This document shows positions 50,899 to 64,000 of a stretch of 64,000 nt of DNA, in pieces (positions within the stretch are counted from its first letter, which is position 1; each line of letters starts with the position of its first letter). The stretch lies in the NCBI RefSeq assembly GCF_002954445.1, contig NZ_MQWA01000001.1, forward strand, positions 442,221 through 506,220, written 5' to 3'. Source of the DNA: Rubritalea profundi. GTDB taxonomy: Bacteria; Verrucomicrobiota; Verrucomicrobiia; Verrucomicrobiales; Akkermansiaceae. Made by a program: the position numbers and the translations under genes. The notes beneath the pieces are model-generated. The model searched no databases. It worked only from the letters and a program-made list of their open reading frames with translations, and was not told the origin of the DNA.

Positions 50899-50932
50899 AA
50901 AAGCCAGTAACCTATTACAGTTACTGGCTTTT
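50899..50932 (-). terminator. Terminator of the tRNA transcript
   Basis: AAAAGCCAGTAAC and GTTACTGGCTTTT, perfect 13-pair stem, placed just past the tRNA 3' end on the minus strand, with a T-rich tail in that direction. Confidence 0.8.
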
Positions 50933-50936
50933 AAAT

Positions 50937-50990
50937 TGGTAGGGGTGGAGAGAATCGAACTCTCGGCCAAGGGATTATGAGTCCCCTGCT
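50937..50990 (-). tRNA. 3' half of a CAT-anticodon tRNA (att site)
   Basis: On the minus strand: GCAGGGGACTCATAATCCCT holds the anticodon arm with CAT, then variable loop, T arm GAGAGTTCGATTCTCTC, acceptor strand and encoded CCA. Sequence before it (to the right) has no D arm or 5' acceptor strand. The form GGACTCATAATCC suggests tRNA-Ile2 (lysidine) or tRNA-Met. A half tRNA with its terminator on the 3' side is what an integrated element leaves at its distal end; the element would then lie to the right. Confidence 0.8.
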
Positions 50991-51223
50991 TTTATTTTTA
51001 ACCCATATACAAGCGATACAGCCAACTTAAGAACAAACTTAAGAAAATCTTTCTGAGGTAGTAGTTAGTTTATAGGTACAACGCGCAGTTTATCTTCAAT
51101 CCATACTCGTAATACAAAACAAGGTCCCACTGCTGTGCAATTCTTCTACCTTGTCCGGCCATACAGGATTCGAATCTTTAGTTACGCTATCACGCTAGTA
51201 ATAACCACTACTCCGAGCCGGTT

Positions 51224-51310
51224 AGCTGTCGGATGCAGCGAATTTTTTTCAACAACCTATAACTCTCATGCTCCGCTATCGCTCCGATAAGAAGCTATCT
51301 CTGGAATTAG
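51224..51310. repeat. 90-bp direct repeat, copy A
   Basis: CCGGTTAGCTGTCGGATGCA, GAATTTTTTTCAACAACC, ATAACTCTCATGC, GCTATCGCTCCGAT, GAAGCTATCT. Placed directly downstream of the 3' end of the NERD gene. The second copy is at 52081. Confidence 0.9.
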
Positions 51311-51343: not shown

Positions 51344-51991
51344 CTAATCGTGAGTTTCACCAAACTTACGCTCCAAATATGCTTGATGCTCCACGTCAGT
51401 CTGAGAGGTCAGCTCGAGCCTTTTGCACTCTAATCTACCAACACAAAACTGAACTCTGTTTAAAGACAGTGATCCACATCTAAAATCATCTACATAAGAG
51501 CTAAGATCTTCAATGTGTATGACATTCCTTGGAATCTCAGTCTTGAACTGTGCGTCACCTGAAAATACAACTAAGCCTTGGATTTCATCTGATGGAAGAA
51601 AGTCCAACAGGTGCCGTACAGCTTTTAGATGCTTTTGGTTCTGGAGAATTGGATTAAGAAATTTATACTTAAGTTTGTATATAACCTGGGTCCATTGAGG
51701 TTGTCTTTCGTGAGCAAATAGCCAGCCAGTGTAATGCTTAGTTTCGATTACTAGGATGCCGTTTTCTGTTATGAGTATATGGTCTATTTGGGTTGTGCCG
51801 TCCTTATAATCTAAGGTGACATTGTTGAGAAAGTGTGATGTTGAAGCTTCGCAGTATTCTGTCAGTAACTGTCTTACTGCACCCTCTCCTTGGTTTTCAT
51901 GCCAAGACTTTCTGCGATTCCCATAATAAAATCCAGTCCCAAAGATGATTAGAGGAATTAGAATTATTAGTGCCAGTATCAGATAAGCCAT
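51344..51991 (-). CDS. Membrane-anchored NERD-domain (nuclease-related) protein
   Basis: 215 residues. N-terminal helix LILALIILIPLIIFGTGFYY, then a NERD domain: EGAVRQLLTEYC, TTQIDHILITENGILVIETK (the D and E-x-K of a PD-(D/E)XK-like core), HYTGWLFAHERQPQWTQV. NERD proteins are predicted nucleases seen in mobile elements and defence loci. Function here not known. Confidence 0.8.
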   Translation of the reverse strand: MAYLILALIILIPLIIFGTGFYYGNRRKSWHENQGEGAVRQLLTEYCEASTSHFLNNVTLDYKDGTTQIDHILITENGILVIETKHYTGWLFAHERQPQWTQVIYKLKYKFLNPILQNQKHLKAVRHLLDFLPSDEIQGLVVFSGDAQFKTEIPRNVIHIEDLSSYVDDFRCGSLSLNRVQFCVGRLECKRLELTSQTDVEHQAYLERKFGETHD

Positions 51992-52080: not shown

Positions 52081-52165
52081 AGTACGGTTAGCTGTCGGAT
52101 GCAGCGAATTTTTTTCAACAACCGATAACTCTCATGCCCCGCTATCGCTCCGATGAGAAGCTATC
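52081..52165. repeat. 90-bp direct repeat, copy B
   Basis: Nearly identical to copy A (GTTAGCTGTCGGATGCAGCG shared exactly). It lies directly downstream of the 3' end of the DUF2726 gene, in the same relation as copy A to the NERD gene. Confidence 0.9.
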
Positions 52166-52181
52166 TTTGGGGTTAGGTTGT

Positions 52182-52943
52182 TTAGATATCTACGGTATGG
52201 CGGCACTTGGGGTAGTTGATGCACCCCCAGAATGTATTGCCAGCATGTTTACCCTTGGTTGCGGTGCGACTGATCATCTCAGAGTGACACTTAGGGCATA
52301 CGGGGGTGGAGTCATCATCTTTGCCCACATCGGAGATTGGCATGAGAGGCGGCTCATCCTTGGTCGCTGCGGTTTCATTTTGCATTAGCGTCTGTTCTAT
52401 CCTCTGGGTGGAAGGATTTGAGCTTGGGCCATTTCCTTCGTGAGGTGGCGAGGGAAAATGAATATGTTCACTCAACTGAGCCTGAATGTCATGAGTCACA
52501 TACCCCTTGGCGGCTGGGATGTGGAGGATAGGTAGCCCTGCGGCTGCGAAGACTCTATCCACAAGCTCATCACGCTGCTTCCTGTCCTCTCTCTCATGAG
52601 ATCTATCATCCAGCTCTACGGCGAGCACTGGCTCCATTGTGCTAGTGTCACAGATTACGAAGTCTACATGCTTCTGGCTGATCCTTCCTCTGGCTCCTTT
52701 ATTCTCATGGGGCCGTCGCACAAAAAACAGATCTCCCAGATTGACCTTGGTAAGCAGGTAATGCTCATCGGTCAGGATTGTTTGCAGCACATGGAAAAAC
52801 GAGATCTCAGCAGCCGAAAGAAAATCATCTCGTTTGCCATAGGGTAATCGATCCTTGCTGAGTTCATAGGTAGGAGGTGTGGTCTTCTTGAAAAAGGGGG
52901 CTAACAGCATGCCGAGGCAGCCAGTTGGTGGTGAAGTGGACAT
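52182..52943 (-). CDS. DUF2726 nuclease-like protein with topoisomerase zinc finger
   Basis: 253 residues. DUF2726 region (residues 40-165): ISFFHVLQTIL, KHVDFVICDTSTMEPVLAVE, LDDRSHE, typical of a restriction-endonuclease-like fold. C-terminal topoisomerase-type C4 zinc finger: CPKCHSEMISR, WGCINYPKCRHT. Predicted DNA-binding nuclease. Same strand and same downstream repeat as the NERD gene. Confidence 0.82.
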   Translation of the reverse strand: MSTSPPTGCLGMLLAPFFKKTTPPTYELSKDRLPYGKRDDFLSAAEISFFHVLQTILTDEHYLLTKVNLGDLFFVRRPHENKGARGRISQKHVDFVICDTSTMEPVLAVELDDRSHEREDRKQRDELVDRVFAAAGLPILHIPAAKGYVTHDIQAQLSEHIHFPSPPHEGNGPSSNPSTQRIEQTLMQNETAATKDEPPLMPISDVGKDDDSTPVCPKCHSEMISRTATKGKHAGNTFWGCINYPKCRHTVDI

Positions 52944-53035: not shown

Positions 53036-53869
53036 TTAAAGGACCTTCATCAAACTTGCGCACTGAACTAACATTTGCTTCGTTATTCCACGTGCTTCCA
53101 TTTGTCTTTTATTGGCCGCTAGAACCCACTCACGTCGATAATGCTTTATTTCCGGAAATGGCTGTTTCGTGACCCAATCCATTCGTTTGTATCCAGCCTC
53201 GGCAATGTCAGGTAGAATTGAGCACGCCTGGTCAGACGCGACCAAGCTCGCCATCTGCAGTAGAGACTCACAATGGATCCGATCTGGGTATTGATCCCCT
53301 ACTGCCTCAATCACTGTTTGAGCGAATTGACCGCCTCCCGTCGGAACAGCCAGCGGGAGCTTTGTATTTGTTGCTCCAAATAAAGAATACCCACATCCCC
53401 CGATAGGCAGGATCATCAATTTATCCTTACTCCCTGAGATTGCATCATTCCGGACCACAGCAAGATCAATCTCACCAGTCCTGAGTAACCCTTCAGCAGC
53501 GCGACTCCTCATTTGGACCATTTCTAGCTCAGCACTCAACAAATTAGCTAGTCCCACCGTGTGAGGAGTAATCACCCATTGCATTGTGCTGAACCCTGCT
53601 CCCACTCTCAACACCGGCCTCTCTCCAGACTTCCTTAGCTTGTAGTCTTCTAGTTGACTGAAGCAGCGCCTTGCGACTATTGCTAACTCTTTACCTTCAT
53701 CAGTCACCTCAATCGTTTTCCCCTTACGCCGGGTGAGTTCGACTTCGAAGAACGCTTCAAGCTCTCGAATTTGACGACTCATAAGACTCTGCCGGGACGG
53801 CTCTCTATCAGCCGCTTCAGCTATACTTCCCTTCTCTACGACGAGCAGAAAATTCCTTAATCGATCCAT
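53036..53869 (-). CDS. LysR-family transcriptional regulator
   Basis: 277 residues. N-terminal winged HTH: MDRLRNFLLVVEKGSIAEAA, PSRQSLMSRQIRELEAFFEV, then a substrate-binding domain of two alpha/beta lobes. The HTH loop is slightly unusual (ADREPSRQSLMSRQ). Start at 53869 is chosen for AAGGA nine bases upstream; the track start adds 25 unlikely residues. Divergent from a phosphoesterase with palindromes between. Confidence 0.85.
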   Translation of the reverse strand: MDRLRNFLLVVEKGSIAEAADREPSRQSLMSRQIRELEAFFEVELTRRKGKTIEVTDEGKELAIVARRCFSQLEDYKLRKSGERPVLRVGAGFSTMQWVITPHTVGLANLLSAELEMVQMRSRAAEGLLRTGEIDLAVVRNDAISGSKDKLMILPIGGCGYSLFGATNTKLPLAVPTGGGQFAQTVIEAVGDQYPDRIHCESLLQMASLVASDQACSILPDIAEAGYKRMDWVTKQPFPEIKHYRREWVLAANKRQMEARGITKQMLVQCASLMKVL

Positions 53870-53915
53870 TGACAATCCTTGCTTCGAGAAGAGCGCTTCA
53901 AACATGGCTATAAAG

Positions 53916-53930
53916 TTACATATAATGTAA
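53916..53930. promoter_or_regulatory. Palindromic operator candidate 1
   Basis: TTACATATAATGTAA, a perfect palindrome between the LysR gene and the phosphoesterase; a LysR-type box by position and symmetry. Confidence 0.55.
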
Positions 53931-53959
53931 TTTAAGCGATACAAAAGTAACTATCTCAT

Positions 53960-53976: not shown

Positions 53977-54924
53977 ATGGAAAAGCAAAAATACGACATA
54001 ATCGGCGACATCCACGGGTGTCATGACAAACTACTCCTCATACTAACCGTTCTAGACTACAAGCTGGTCGATGGGTGTTACCGTCATCCTCTCGGGCGCA
54101 AAGTTGCCTTCTTAGGTGACTTCATTGACCCCAAAGGCGACATCCCCCACGACGTTCCTGCCGTACTAGAAATAGTTAAAACTATGGTAGATAAAAAAGA
54201 AGCTGTGGCGGTAATGGGTAACCACGAGTTCAATGCTGTTGCCCACGCCACACCAGATGGGAACGGTGGCTACCTTCGTCCTCATCTCCCCAATAAAGAC
54301 AAAGGTCTGAAAATCACACTTGAGGCATTTAAAGACGGCTTCGATGGCCAAGAATGGAAAGGCTGGATCGACTGGTTCAAGACCCTCCCCTTCTACCTTG
54401 AATTGGACGGGTTTCGCCTGGTGCACGCCTACTGGCACGAAGAGGCAATAGCAGAGCTTGCAGGCAAAACGCTCCATGATGACGGCTTCCTTAAACTCGC
54501 TGCCACAAAAGGCACCAAGGAGTACGGGTGGATAGAAAATGTCCTAAAAGGATATGAAATCCCAATGCCTGGTGAGCACAAATATAAAGACCACACTGGT
54601 GAGTGGCGTGACAAATTCCGTGCGCGTTGGTTCGACCAAGCCCCAAAAGGAAAGTTGGCGTGCGATCTAGTCTTCCCAGCCGGCAACTTCGATATTCCAG
54701 CGGAACTAGTTCCAGATGAAACTGCGGCTCTCATCCCTGGCTATGCTCAAGCTGAACCACCTGTGTTCTTTGGTCACTACTTCAAGCCCGAGGACTGCCC
54801 GCTCGAGCCAGAGCTCACTAACCTAGCCTGCCTCGACTACAGCGTCGCCAAAGGAGGACCAATGGTCGCCTACCGTTGGGATGGAGAAGCAAAACTAACC
54901 CCCGAAAAATACCTCGCAGTATGA
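53977..54924 (+). CDS. PP2A-like metallophosphoesterase
   Basis: 315-residue phosphoesterase: DIIGDIHGCHDKL near residue 6, VAFLGDFIDPKG near 42, VMGNHEFNAVAHA near 77, RLVHAYWHEEA near 148, and FGHYFKP near 266. All metal ligands seem present. Similar to ApaH/PrpE-type phosphatases, substrate unknown. No ribosome site precedes the ATG. The next small gene overlaps its stop by ATGA. Confidence 0.85.
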   Translation: MEKQKYDIIGDIHGCHDKLLLILTVLDYKLVDGCYRHPLGRKVAFLGDFIDPKGDIPHDVPAVLEIVKTMVDKKEAVAVMGNHEFNAVAHATPDGNGGYLRPHLPNKDKGLKITLEAFKDGFDGQEWKGWIDWFKTLPFYLELDGFRLVHAYWHEEAIAELAGKTLHDDGFLKLAATKGTKEYGWIENVLKGYEIPMPGEHKYKDHTGEWRDKFRARWFDQAPKGKLACDLVFPAGNFDIPAELVPDETAALIPGYAQAEPPVFFGHYFKPEDCPLEPELTNLACLDYSVAKGGPMVAYRWDGEAKLTPEKYLAV

Positions 54925-58027: not shown

Positions 58028-58597
58028 ATGAATACTGAATTAACTGCAAAATTTGAAGGCCACAAGGTCCGTGTTCTAGGAACAGCAATGGAGCCAATGT
58101 TCGTAGCGAAGGATGTCTGCGATGTCCTGGAGATTAAGAACAGCCGCCAAGCACTCGCTAGATTAGACGATAATGAAAAGGGTGTCACGATAGCTGACAC
58201 CCTTGGTGGCTCCCAAGAAATGACCTACGTCACAGAGTCCGGTCTTTACCACCTCATGTTCAAATCCAGGAAACCAGCAGCAAAGAGATTCCGCCGATGG
58301 GTTACTGATGAAGTCATCCCCTCAATCCGAAAGACTGGCTCCTACGTAGTCAGCTCCCCAACATTTGAAGAACTCGATAACCAATTAACCAAAACGCTGG
58401 ATAAGTGGATCAGCCGCGGAGTCTCCCCCGATAAAGCATCGGCATGTGTCAGCAACATCTTCAAAGAATCTGGCAAGGGTTGCGTCAACATAGATCGATC
58501 GAACAAAACCACACCTAACCTCTTACCTAAAGCACGTTACGACTCAGAAACCACTACAACTGATGAATTTGATTTCGACGCGACACCAACTCTATAA
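58028..58597 (+). CDS. BRO-N domain protein (phage antirepressor type)
   Basis: 189 residues. BRO-N domain in residues 5-105: VRVLGTAMEPMFVAKDVCDV, LDDNEKGV, YVTESGLYHLMFKSRKPAAK, FRRWVTDEVIPSIRKTGSY. C-terminal half is polar without the usual KilA-C/ANT domain. Such proteins act as phage antirepressors or DNA-binding regulators. Marks the region as phage-derived. Confidence 0.88.
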   Translation: MNTELTAKFEGHKVRVLGTAMEPMFVAKDVCDVLEIKNSRQALARLDDNEKGVTIADTLGGSQEMTYVTESGLYHLMFKSRKPAAKRFRRWVTDEVIPSIRKTGSYVVSSPTFEELDNQLTKTLDKWISRGVSPDKASACVSNIFKESGKGCVNIDRSNKTTPNLLPKARYDSETTTTDEFDFDATPTL

Positions 58598-58671: not shown

Positions 58672-58905
58672 ATGGATTTTAGGAAAACCAGCCAACGAAT
58701 GAATGATCTAAACGAAGCCTCCGACATCAACGACTACCGATACTATCGCAAGTTAGTAGGCACACAAAAGGAAGTCGCCAAGATGCTCGGGTTCAACCGT
58801 AAAACTCTATCCTTCCGGGAAAATGGTAGGGCAGAAATCTCGGTAGAGTCCGGCCTAGCGATGCGTGAACTCGCTCGCCAAGTCGGCTACATGGTAGATG
58901 ATTAA
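58672..58905 (+). CDS. Small XRE-like helix-turn-helix protein
   Basis: 77 residues. DINDYRYYRKLVGTQKEVAK then MLGFNRKTLSFRENG reads as a HTH (Q-E-V-A..L-G...T-L..-E-N-G). Convergent with the next gene, with a 4-base overlap of stops. Probably a regulator of the element. Confidence 0.7.
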   Translation: MDFRKTSQRMNDLNEASDINDYRYYRKLVGTQKEVAKMLGFNRKTLSFRENGRAEISVESGLAMRELARQVGYMVDD

Positions 58906-59432: not shown

Positions 59433-59454
59433 TACCCCCATAAATGTCCCACCC
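59433..59454. promoter_or_regulatory. Shared 22-base upstream box, copy 1
   Basis: The 22 bases include CCCCATAAATGTCCCACCC and are repeated exactly at 59925. It lies 19 bases before the ATG of the gene at 59473. Confidence 0.6.
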
Positions 59455-59472
59455 TCCCTTTAGCGTGGGAAC

Positions 59473-59841
59473 ATGACTCGCTCAGAACTCGATAAAGTAA
59501 GCGCAGGTGTCGGTGGCATGATCCACCTTGTCGACATGCTCACGCAGATCACTCGTGCTCTGCATTGCCCGCTGGTACGATCCTTAGCTGAGCGTACTAA
59601 AGGCCCTGACTCACTCTACGACTTCTTCGCTGATGGCCCGGGAGATCCCCCTGCCGGCTATTATCTGTATATCGACGAGGACACGGACCCTGCACTCGCA
59701 GCCTACGACACTCTCAACCTTGTCTACGGCTACTGCGCTGAGGTCCAGGCTGGCGAAGGCTACACCTTCCCCTTCATCAAATGCGCCGACAGACGCTACG
59801 CCCTTATCAAACTGGAAGAGTACACAGGGAACATTCACTAA
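59473..59841 (+). CDS. Hypothetical protein
   Basis: 122 residues: MTRSELDKVSAGVGGMIHLV, then acidic DFFADGPGDPPAGYYLYIDE. Family not recognised. A truncated paralog of its first ~30 codons lies at 61013. Both have a related upstream region, and the same 22-base box precedes the VWA gene, hinting at shared control. Confidence 0.6.
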   Translation: MTRSELDKVSAGVGGMIHLVDMLTQITRALHCPLVRSLAERTKGPDSLYDFFADGPGDPPAGYYLYIDEDTDPALAAYDTLNLVYGYCAEVQAGEGYTFPFIKCADRRYALIKLEEYTGNIH

Positions 59842-60023: not shown

Positions 60024-60707
60024 ATGAATAACGAACTAACTGAAATTGCATTTATTCTCGACCGCTCTGGCTCCATGCAGTCACTCACCGATGCGGCTAT
60101 CACAGGATTCAACTCCTTCCTCGACGATCAGCTCGATGCGCCTGGCGAGGCTCGTCTCACTCTCGTCCTGTTCGATAACGAATACATCCTGCACGCCAAT
60201 CGTGCTCCGCTCAAGGAAGTCCAAAAGCTCGACACACTGAGCTACGTTCCGCGTGGTACAACTGCCTTGCTAGATGCCATTGGGCGCACCATCGAATCCA
60301 TCGGGGCAAAGCTATCCTGCGCCCCGGAAAAGGACCGTCCAGGATCTGTCACCATCGCCATCTACACCGATGGCTACGAGAACGCCTCGACCGATTACTC
60401 CGCCACTCGGATTCGCGAGATGATCAAACATCAGACCAAACAATACAACTGGCAGTTTCTGTTCCTAGCAGCCAACGAAGACGCCATCGCCACGGCGGCG
60501 CACTACGGTATCGACAAAAACAATGCCGCCCAGGTCCTTTTCAGCCAAACAGGAATGCACTCCAGCACTCAAAGTATCTCCCGCAAAGTCAAAGCGTCAC
60601 GTATCCGGTGCAGCGAAGTTTGGAATGATGATGAACTCGCCAAAGACGCCGACGTCGACCTCTCCGAAATTGTCGCAGAAGAAACTAAGAAGCAAGCAGA
60701 CGCCTAA
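60024..60707 (+). CDS. VWA-domain protein
   Basis: 227 residues, almost wholly a von Willebrand A domain: FILDRSGSMQSLTDA gives the MIDAS D-x-S-x-S; YVPRGTTALLDAIGRTI gives the MIDAS Thr; VTIAIYTDGYENAS gives the last Asp. No signal peptide, so it is cytoplasmic. Homologues accompany tellurite/stress, chaperone-like and tubulin-like gene sets. A hairpin follows at 60729. Confidence 0.88.
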   Translation: MNNELTEIAFILDRSGSMQSLTDAAITGFNSFLDDQLDAPGEARLTLVLFDNEYILHANRAPLKEVQKLDTLSYVPRGTTALLDAIGRTIESIGAKLSCAPEKDRPGSVTIAIYTDGYENASTDYSATRIREMIKHQTKQYNWQFLFLAANEDAIATAAHYGIDKNNAAQVLFSQTGMHSSTQSISRKVKASRIRCSEVWNDDELAKDADVDLSEIVAEETKKQADA

Positions 60708-60777: not shown

Positions 60778-61012
60778 AACACCTCCCCCACTCAAACAAC
60801 GTTTAAAATAAAACCCTAACTCACACAACTTAAGACACCTCTAACACAGTCAAAACTGGCCACCGACTTTCCCCTTGCTAGAGCCATTGACTAATTGCTA
60901 CACCACTCCATTCGTTTGCTTACTTAGCTTACGCCTCCTCCCTATGTTTACTTTCCTCCACACCGCCGACATCCACCTGTATTTGTCCCTCCCTACATTC
61001 TAACGTTGAATC

Positions 61013-61110
61013 ATGACTCGGACTGAACTCGATAAGGTAAGCACACGTGTCGGTGGGATGATCCATCTAACCGACATGCTCACGCAGATCACTCGCGCCC
61101 AAATTTTTAT
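61013..61110 (+). pseudogene. Truncated paralog of the gene at 59473
   Basis: MTRTELDKVS, VGGMIHLTDMLTQITRA match the first 29 residues of the 122-residue protein, after which the sequence diverges and stops. The upstream region (TTGTCCCTCCC) is also related. Confidence 0.85.
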
Positions 61111-61280: not shown

Positions 61281-62189
61281 ATGACCACCCCGACACCTCG
61301 TAGACTAATCAGTAAAATTACGAATTTTACAATTTGCAGAATACTACTGCTTATTTTTTTCGTGTCTTTATCCGTCAATGCATATGGCGCAGACCTCAAA
61401 ATGATCGAAGGCTGCAGAGCTATTGATGCTGACTGGTCAGACGGAGACAGTTTCCCTGTAGAGACTCCTAACAAGGAAAAATTTACTGTCCGCCTCTATG
61501 GAGCTGACACCTTGGAGTCCACTGTAACTAACACAACTGACGCTCGCCGCCTGAGAGCTCAGAGGAGGTATTTTGGTATTACCAAAGCCGATGGTTCATC
61601 CCAAGCTTCTATCAAACTTTCTAAGCAGCTCGGTGATGAGGCAACCATACTTAGAAAACAACTCTTAGCGCAGCCCTTCACTGTCTACACTGGCTTTGCT
61701 GACGCCCGAGGAGACCGTCGCTACAAACGCTACTATGCATTCATCAAGCTCAGTGACGGCCGAGACTTAGCAAGTGTCCTTGTCGAGAAAGGCTTAGCCA
61801 GAGCCTTCGGTGTTTACAGAAAGACGTGGGACAACCGCGATGCGAAGACTTATCAGGCCTCGCTAAAAGACTTAGAAATGCTCGCGGCTAAAAAAGAGAG
61901 AGGCATATGGGCTCACACTGACTGGGACGACTTCATCTCTGCGAGAGAAAGTCAACGGGAGGAAGATCGCTTAGTATCCATGGCTCTCGACTCTAATAAA
62001 GTCATTACCGAAAGCATCAGTATCAACACGTCTTCAAGAGACGAACTGATGCAACTCCCAGGCATTGGGGAAACTACCGCGAATGCGATCATCGAAGGTC
62101 GTCCATTTAAACTGGTCACCGACATCACCAAAGTACGCGGCATCGGTCCTAAAACTCTCGAAAAACTCAAACCCTATATAACCCTCTAG
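61281..62189 (+). CDS. Secreted thermonuclease-like protein with HhH domain
   Basis: 302 residues. Hydrophobic export segment RILLLIFFVSLSVNAYGA at residues 19-37. SNase-like domain: VRLYGADTLES near residue 70, YKRYYAFIKLSDGRDLA, LVEKGLARAFG near 170. C-terminal helix-hairpin-helix pair: INTSSRDELMQLPGIGETTA, VRGIGPKTLEKLKPYI, as in ComEA. It would bind and cut DNA outside the cytoplasm. Next gene 17 bases downstream. Confidence 0.87.
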   Translation: MTTPTPRRLISKITNFTICRILLLIFFVSLSVNAYGADLKMIEGCRAIDADWSDGDSFPVETPNKEKFTVRLYGADTLESTVTNTTDARRLRAQRRYFGITKADGSSQASIKLSKQLGDEATILRKQLLAQPFTVYTGFADARGDRRYKRYYAFIKLSDGRDLASVLVEKGLARAFGVYRKTWDNRDAKTYQASLKDLEMLAAKKERGIWAHTDWDDFISARESQREEDRLVSMALDSNKVITESISINTSSRDELMQLPGIGETTANAIIEGRPFKLVTDITKVRGIGPKTLEKLKPYITL

Positions 62190-62206: not shown

Positions 62207-62992
62207 ATGAACCTACTAGAAAAACTACAATTTGGTTTCACCTACTCCACCTCGGCCGGAACCACTGCAGCTTGGATTTGGGCTATACTCATCACCCTCG
62301 TCTTTTTCTTTGGATTTGGCATGGTTTGGGGCAAACTATGGAATAAAAGCTGGAGTCTCACTGATTCGGGTATGCGCGTCACCCTCGTAGCCGTAGCTTC
62401 CATTCTTGCTGGGTACGCCACCCTCAACCTCGCCAATGTCCAAAAATTTGATCAATGGCTAGAGAATGAAAGAGCCCAACTCGTACGCTCTGTCACATCC
62501 TCCGGAAAATTCAACCGAGACGTATTTGTCGACGCTTGGGAGATCATCTCTGCCAATAGTGATCAGAAAGGACTAACCCACCCTGACGAAGGCGGCGAAG
62601 AGCTCCGACTCAACGAAAAAACAGATGCCAGCCACCTTGCTTCAGCATCAGCGAGTGAAGCCTCAGCAGTCCTCCGGAAAAAAGCCCCATTCATCTGGGG
62701 TGTCCCATTCTCACCAATGCTTCCTGAAGTCGCGGCTGCATCCACAATCGAAGCTGTAGGCCTGCCTGACAGCGAGTATCCAGCAATCGTCCTAGCAAAC
62801 AACGACTGGACTCGCACAGCGGCAACTATCCAAGCAAACCATTCCCTCGAAGCCTTTAGAAAGATCGTCGGACCTGAAATCGAATCCCTCAGAATGGGCT
62901 GCACGGGACTTATTGGCTTACTGGCCGCCCTCCTCATTTTCTTCATACCCTCCATTGCTCTTGGAGAAATTCAAGTAAATCCAAAAGCTTAA
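62207..62992 (+). CDS. Membrane protein of unknown function
   Basis: 261 residues. Helices near residues 20-45 (WIWAILITLVFFFGFGMVWG), 62-80 (VTLVAVASILAGYATLNLA) and 228-250 (GLIGLLAALLIFFIPSIAL), with a 145-residue soluble loop between. No family recognised. Only 17-18 bases separate it from both neighbours (thermonuclease-like and tubulin-like), so it is probably part of one unit with them. Confidence 0.75.
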   Translation: MNLLEKLQFGFTYSTSAGTTAAWIWAILITLVFFFGFGMVWGKLWNKSWSLTDSGMRVTLVAVASILAGYATLNLANVQKFDQWLENERAQLVRSVTSSGKFNRDVFVDAWEIISANSDQKGLTHPDEGGEELRLNEKTDASHLASASASEASAVLRKKAPFIWGVPFSPMLPEVAAASTIEAVGLPDSEYPAIVLANNDWTRTAATIQANHSLEAFRKIVGPEIESLRMGCTGLIGLLAALLIFFIPSIALGEIQVNPKA

Positions 62993-63010: not shown

Positions 63011-64000
63011 ATGAAAAATCACTTATTTATCGGTCTTGGTGGCCAAGGTGGCAGCACTCTTGCTGAACTCAAAAAAGTAATTGAGACACGGAAAAAGGAT
63101 GTCCTCCATCTTCAAAACCTCAAGAATCCAGTAGCTCACGACTTTCTGTACATAGACTCCAGCAGGAGTGAACTAAATTCTAAAAAGCTCTGGAATTATT
63201 TCGGCAAAGACTTGAGTCTTAAAACCGCAGATCTAGTACCGCTCAAGAGTTCAAGTCAGAGTTTCGATATTGATAACTTAGCACAAAGAAGAGACATAGC
63301 CCCTTGGATTGGAGACCTATCCTACATTCGGAAAATTAGCCAGGGTAAAGAAACTGGGCAGGGTGCCAATCAACAGCGCCGCTTTGGACGAATCTTATTC
63401 GCCCAAAATTCGGCTAAAATAATGAAAGGTGTCACCAATAAGGTAGACTCCATGCTCAGTAACAGTAACAGCTGCGCATTTCATATTTTCGCGTCACTCG
63501 CTGGGGGTACAGGTAGTGGCGGCATTGTAGATTTGGTAACCATGCTTCGAAATAAATATGAAAATTCGGATATCGAGGACGGATTCCCTATTTTTCTATA
63601 CCTCTTTGTCACAAGCAAAGACAGCCAACAAAAAGTTGAGTACTTTCACTTGAACCAAAACGCGGCTCTCCACGATTTAAATGCTCTGATGTGCGAGAGA
63701 ATCAATCCAACTATATTAAACACTATAGACGGTAAGGAATTTGTGGGGAAAACACCCATCAACCTAATCACACTCAGCTCCCAAGTATCTGAACACAACA
63801 AAGATGTTAGCCTTGAGAAGCAGCGTCAAATCATTGCTGAAGGAGCCTTTGAAAGAATCTACGCATACTGTAATGGAAGCCTAGACCCCAATGACCAGCG
63901 TTTTCTTACAGGTGAAGATTTACTTAAGTTGATTCCCGCTGAACCCAGAATTGCGCCATTAAGAAGCTACCGGTACTCTAGCTTCGGTATGCAACGCTGG
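63011..64000 (+). CDS. Tubulin/FtsZ-superfamily protein, cut by window end
   Basis: Not in the ORF track because it runs off the window: 330 codons open from ATG 63011. N-terminal FIGLGGQGGSTLAELKKVI is the first GTP-binding loop, and ASLAGGTGSGGIVDLVTML near residue 160 is the tubulin signature G-G-T-G-S-G. It matches the bacterial tubulin-like family (Tubulin_2 type), not FtsZ itself. It is expected to bind GTP and perhaps form filaments. The membrane protein 18 bases upstream is a likely partner. Confidence 0.85.
   Translation, partial: MKNHLFIGLGGQGGSTLAELKKVIETRKKDVLHLQNLKNPVAHDFLYIDSSRSELNSKKLWNYFGKDLSLKTADLVPLKSSSQSFDIDNLAQRRDIAPWIGDLSYIRKISQGKETGQGANQQRRFGRILFAQNSAKIMKGVTNKVDSMLSNSNSCAFHIFASLAGGTGSGGIVDLVTMLRNKYENSDIEDGFPIFLYLFVTSKDSQQKVEYFHLNQNAALHDLNALMCERINPTILNTIDGKEFVGKTPINLITLSSQVSEHNKDVSLEKQRQIIAEGAFERIYAYCNGSLDPNDQRFLTGEDLLKLIPAEPRIAPLRSYRYSSFGMQRW

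Follow-up and report, generated by a model that had tools for sequence, protein, structure and literature searches.

A tRNA gene reduced to its 3' half, with a strong terminator behind it, raises the question of where the missing part lies and what separated the two. Such a fragment is found on the minus strand of the window (the whole 64,000-nucleotide stretch analysed here, C1:442221-506220, C1 being the contig that carries it in a 4.17-Mb genome of four contigs). The original prediction held that this half tRNA, with a CAT anticodon, is the displaced 3' end left by an integrase that uses a tRNA, and that an element should extend to the right of position 50990. Direct reading, ARAGORN and Rfam all bear out the description of the fragment. 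It comprises the anticodon arm, variable loop, T arm, 3' acceptor strand and CCA, beginning just 5' of the anticodon stem, with CTCATAA as the anticodon loop. The T arm is followed by CACCCCTA and then by CCA at the 3' end; read on the minus strand up to 50937, the sequence is GCAGGGGACTCATAATCCCTTGGCCGAGAGTTCGATTCTCTCCACCCCTACCA, preceded by one extra A, with A as the discriminator before CCA. Both the D arm and the 5' acceptor strand are absent from the half at 50937-50990 (the sequence 5' of it is AAAATAAA, which is not a D arm), and ARAGORN found no complete tRNA in the window. The Rfam tRNA model matched 50948-51003 on the minus strand with 32.5 bits, above the gathering score, over model positions 9-63 of 71; the portion of this match to the right of 50990 is not tRNA-derived.

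A genome search with the fragment led to an intact tRNA(CAT) gene at C1:545573-545648, on the same strand of the same contig. The two loci share a perfect 63-bp direct repeat, whose left copy ends exactly at 50990 and whose right copy lies at window-equivalent 103344-103406, 52,416 bp away; the same search returned neither a third copy nor any further tRNA piece between the ends. The fragment (493 kb) sits downstream of the intact gene (545.6 kb) in the same orientation. Because a 63-nt exact copy of it is part of an intact tRNA, the half is not a chance likeness, and, as predicted, a tRNA with the same 3' end does lie to the right, in the same orientation. Only three CAT tRNAs, all different, are present in the genome: the initiator, one resembling elongator Met, and the one at C1:545573-545648, which is a single-copy gene. 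ARAGORN labels the latter Met; by elimination, and from its CTCATAA loop, it is probably tRNA-Ile2.

The perfect terminator described 3' of the half tRNA was confirmed: its inverted repeat is perfect over 13 bp, encloses an 8-nt loop and folds at -20.2 kcal/mol (z = -5.6; 0 of 200 shuffles were equally stable). Its TGTAAT loop and part of its stem are common to the terminators of other host tRNA genes, namely tRNA-Met (C1:2449.9 kb) and tRNA-Ser GCT. Since loop and stem resemble those of other host tRNA terminators, and since the hairpin that follows the regenerated tRNA is unrelated, the sequence data fit a native terminator left with the 3' half and a hairpin at the regenerated tRNA that was supplied by the island. 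As a separate observation, the tRNA 3' flanks at C1:493.1, 682.8 and 2449.9 kb have a similar stem and the common TGTAAT loop, as if copied between loci.

An integrase was also expected to adjoin the intact tRNA. A tyrosine recombinase gene is located there (C1:544254-545210, minus strand), 0.36 kb inside this end of the island, its product carrying the Pfam domains Phage_int_SAM_5 and Phage_integrase and matching a PHROG integrase (2.1e-32). At E<=1e-10, the genome has no other match to the integrase family. A sequence search of solved structures gave no match to the integrase, and named relatives were not confirmed for it among genome contigs and viral contigs, nor among genome contigs for the FtsZl1 protein described below. 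A homologue in a genome of the same genus (G007), 45% identical and encoded by one 396-aa ORF, keeps the R/K/HxxR/H/Y residues and adjoins a tRNA-Asn gene; therefore, this integrase family has used another tRNA. No displaced tRNA-Asn half was found in that assembly. At its N terminus, the G007 protein carries a segment that ORF C1:544254-545210 lacks, and an arm-binding-like N-terminal segment lies just upstream in another frame (C1:545216-545434; 36% over 58 aa against the G007 protein, with an E-value of 2e-7 for that one comparison). As assembled, the frame is broken between the N-terminal/arm-binding and catalytic parts, by either real decay or a sequencing indel, and because of this break the present mobility of the island is uncertain.

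Arm-type sites of tyrosine integrases are paired repeats that flank the core. One pair of AACTTAAGAA copies, 2 nt apart, lies within the island at 34 bp from the left repeat, and a second such pair at 108 bp from the right repeat (C1:545434-545455). These are the only two pairs in the 4.17-Mb genome, even with 2 mismatches allowed, base composition predicting about 1e-5 occurrences of the double motif. Three 11-bp CTACCTAAAAA-type repeats adjoin the right pair. From their sequence and position, the AACTTAAGAA pairs look like integrase arm sites.

The repeat, the intact tRNA, the recombinase and the paired motifs support the prediction of a tRNA-using integrase and of an element extending right of 50990, and we put at roughly 95% the probability that the half tRNA was displaced from a tRNA gene when a 52,416-bp genomic island split it. 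The island would have integrated into the single-copy tRNA(CAT) gene, the tyrosine recombinase exchanging strands somewhere in the 63 bp that the two copies share, with the anticodon loop as the most likely crossover point. At the right end, the 3' half that the island brought with it would have completed the tRNA again and given it a new terminator; the original 3' half would have been displaced to the left end together with the native terminator, where both would now be a non-functional remnant. Because the split gene is the genome's only copy, the island had to rebuild the tRNA at once, a need that is the textbook explanation for the presence of the target's 3' end on elements of this kind. 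The features of the window are collected in the table.

Features of the window at the left end of the island and in its first genes (window positions)
Feature	Position	Strand	Evidence
Terminator, probably native to the split tRNA gene and displaced with it: perfect hairpin with a 13-bp stem, followed by CTTGTTTG	50899..50932	-	folding, inverted-repeat search
attL, left copy of the 63-bp direct repeat	50928..50990	.	63/63 identical to C1:545564-545626, spacing 52,416
tRNA(CAT) 3' half, anticodon arm to CCA, very probably displaced	50937..50990	-	Rfam match, no complete tRNA, identity to intact gene
Putative left integrase arm site, AACTTAAGAA-CA-AACTTAAGAA	51024..51045	+	genome-wide motif search; function inferred
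NERD nuclease-related protein	51344..51991	-	Pfam NERD 2.2e-27
DUF2726 + topoisomerase zinc ribbon	52182..52943	-	domain match
LysR-type regulator	53036..53944	-	domain match
Calcineurin-like phosphoesterase, diadenosine-tetraphosphatase-like	53977..54924	+	domain match
BRO-N / anti-repressor-like protein	58028..58597	+	Pfam Bro-N 1.8e-23; PHROG anti-repressor 2.1e-48
HTH_3 regulator	58672..58905	+	domain match
VWA-domain protein	60024..60707	+	58% identity to a VWA protein encoded next to the FtsZl1 operon of G040
SNase/helix-hairpin-helix nuclease	61281..62189	+	domain match
First gene of the FtsZl1 operon, membrane protein	62207..62992	+	gene order also in G040, G063, G181
Start of the tubulin/FtsZ-like FtsZl1 gene (whole gene C1:505231-508188, 985 aa)	63011..64000	+	Pfam Tubulin_2 6.9e-36

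Integration of this kind is well documented, the Islander database (PMC4383910) holding 3,919 tRNA-type islands, of which 2,083 are of the anticodon-centred class. Like those islands, the present one has a displaced 3' fragment and a regenerated tRNA as precise ends and a tyrosine integrase inside; its fragment lies downstream in the same orientation, and the anticodon loop falls within the 63-bp repeat, which is also the arrangement of the anticodon-centred class. Nothing essential sets it apart, the integrase frame being broken as assembled here. The principle is thus already catalogued in thousands, and this island is a further example of it. The ends of a 52.4-kb, horizontally acquired segment are known to the base, which allows its genes to be handled as a single unit of acquisition. 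In addition, an enigmatic operon of FtsZ-like/OmpA type is found on the island in the company of defence genes, and this points to a function for the operon that can be tested.

We considered whether the fragment could instead be a tRNA pseudogene, produced by decay or by local duplication and having nothing to do with the recombinase that lies 52 kb from it. Pseudogenes of tRNAs and duplicated tRNA ends exist, and no empty site was seen in searches of 58 genomes with the tRNA and with the NUDIX gene of the right flank, and of 12 genomes with the TolC gene of the left flank; at none of the loci examined were the two flanks joined through this tRNA. The tRNA(CAT) is kept in 57/58 relatives, the NUDIX gene in 56/58, and the left-flank RND operon within the same genus; the three are not neighbours at any relative locus examined, and the empty site could not be shown because relatives are rearranged around the tRNA. 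However, the 63-bp identity is perfect and stops abruptly on both sides, order and orientation are as for integration, the recombinase adjoins the intact copy, and the paired motifs are unique and present at both ends. A pseudogene origin is therefore very hard to credit. The cargo is also rare in relatives, as expected of mobile genes: the integrase was detected at E<=1e-25 in 2/145 genomes and FtsZl1 in 6/143, the island's own genome being counted in both. Mean GC is 0.46 in the island, 0.50 to its left and 0.48 to its right, and the contrast in GC and tetranucleotides is modest and variable along the island. This uneven composition, together with the variety of the cargo, which ranges from a restriction system and an IS transposase to several nuclease clusters, is what at least two elements stacked at one tRNA, rather than a single island, might produce; with one integrase-family match (E<=1e-10) in the genome and no further copy of the repeat or tRNA piece between the ends in the search with the fragment, we consider stacking improbable.

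A related possibility, compatible with the island model and concerning present mobility only, is that the island is a fossil, fixed by the loss of its integrase. The integrase segments lie in different frames, whereas the G007 homologue is a single ORF, and the cargo gene for a ProA-type helicase is frame-broken too, changing frame at L040:7880-8140 (C1:517.9-518.1 kb), with its C-terminal part in the other frame at L040:8132-8947. The ProA frame change may reflect either decay or a sequencing indel, but its position at a run of A is where sequencing indels would be expected in a 4-contig assembly, and the att repeats and arm motifs are unmutated. We give the fossil reading somewhat less than an even chance.

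Within the single island that we favour, the cargo reads from left to right NERD, DUF2726, LysR, phosphoesterase, BRO-N, HTH genes, VWA and SNase, then a membrane protein, FtsZl1 (Tubulin_2), an OmpA/binding protein, MotA-like and MotB-like proteins and the anti-phage ProA-type helicase (NCBIfam NF058533, 1894.8 bits against a cut-off of 1500). These are followed by Sel1 repeats, Band 7, HsdM, HsdS, an AAA ATPase and HsdR, and finally by an IS transposase, DUF6998, HNH and the integrase. The gene content had been thought to agree with an integrated element; BRO-N, the small HTH genes and the nucleases do so, but the term phage-like held up weakly, the cargo being defence-like. In common with prophages, the island has an integrase, a BRO-N/anti-repressor-like gene and small HTH genes. 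It appears to differ from them in that no structural genes (capsid or tail) and no terminase, packaging or lysis genes turned up when its proteins were compared with Pfam and PHROGs, a set that comprised the ORFs other than some small or unmatched ones and in which PHROGs covered part of the ORFs; the phage-family (PHROG) matches in this set were only the BRO-N anti-repressor type and the integrase, and no relaxase, type IV secretion or conjugation genes were found in it. The type I restriction operon HsdM-HsdS-AAA ATPase-HsdR spans L040:16256-20000 and L041:1-4070. By its position between HsdS and HsdR, the ATPase recalls prr-type loci, which carry an anticodon nuclease, but its C-terminal half has only a weak, sub-threshold AAA_13 match.

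The five genes for the membrane protein, FtsZl1, the OmpA/binding protein and the MotA-like and MotB-like proteins form an operon core at C1:504427-512937 (window-equivalent 62207-70717), and the operon runs past the window to about C1:518.9 kb. The five-gene order is kept in G040, G063 and G181, which belong to other genera and families; in G063, the operon has no nuclease gene next to it. The MotA-like protein (C1:510142-511827) has a long helical tail, and its structure model, of low confidence (mean pLDDT 56), points to an ExbB/TolQ/ZorA-like fold, the best E-value being 0.016. The MotB-like protein (C1:511849-512937) has an Asp in its membrane helix that is invariant in four sequences, and its model, of low confidence, matches the OmpA C-terminal domain with E ~1e-3. 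PADLOC matches to ZorA and ZorB were weak (1.1e-8 and 1.6e-6), a profile search of the MotB-like protein against solved ZorB gave no match, and ZorC, ZorD and ZorE were not recognised beside the operon, its neighbour being the ProA/PDC-S37-type helicase.

The operon resembles Zorya (ZorAB; PMC11890865) in that two of its products look like a MotA/ExbB/TolQ-fold protein and a MotB/OmpA-type protein, and differs in adding an FtsZ-like GTPase and an OmpA/binding-protein gene. With the FtsZl1 operons for which Makarova and Koonin (2010; PMC2875224) proposed membrane remodelling, it shares a Tubulin_2 protein accompanied by OmpA-family and VWA proteins; unlike them, it is carried on a tRNA island and has a MotAB-like pair, followed by an anti-phage-type helicase. 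The neighbouring genes hint at a defence role for the operon. A bolder proposal, which we regard as rather doubtful, is that the five-gene core is an undescribed motor-driven defence module, Zorya-like with a cytoskeletal GTPase, accompanied by varied nucleases and borne on islands; if true, it would give FtsZl1 operons a defence role. In G040, which is from another family, a homologous operon lies 9-19 kb downstream of a homologous tRNA-CAT (G040 C1:1857183-1876460; L117, L118), with a VWA gene and an HNH gene whose product is 55% identical to that of the island. This tRNA-CAT locus has neither an integrase nor a displaced tRNA fragment, and it is possibly a shared defence hotspot or a decayed island.

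Repeats of several kinds were noticed within the island. A 92-bp repeat, 93% identical between 51219-51310 and 52085-52176, lies just 3' of the minus-strand NERD and DUF2726 genes, and the two copies look like gene-plus-repeat units; a third, partial copy is found at C1:3008000. Integron attC sites were considered for these repeats and rejected, as their folding was no better than that of shuffles (z = +1.2) and the genome holds only three copies. Farther to the right, a 98-bp segment at 59461-59558, the start of a 122-aa ORF, has a second copy 1.5 kb on (61001-61098, 84% identical), and an exact 22-bp repeat at 59433 and 59925 flanks the same ORF. From their sequence, these 98-bp and 22-bp repeats appear to be traces of duplication in the island.
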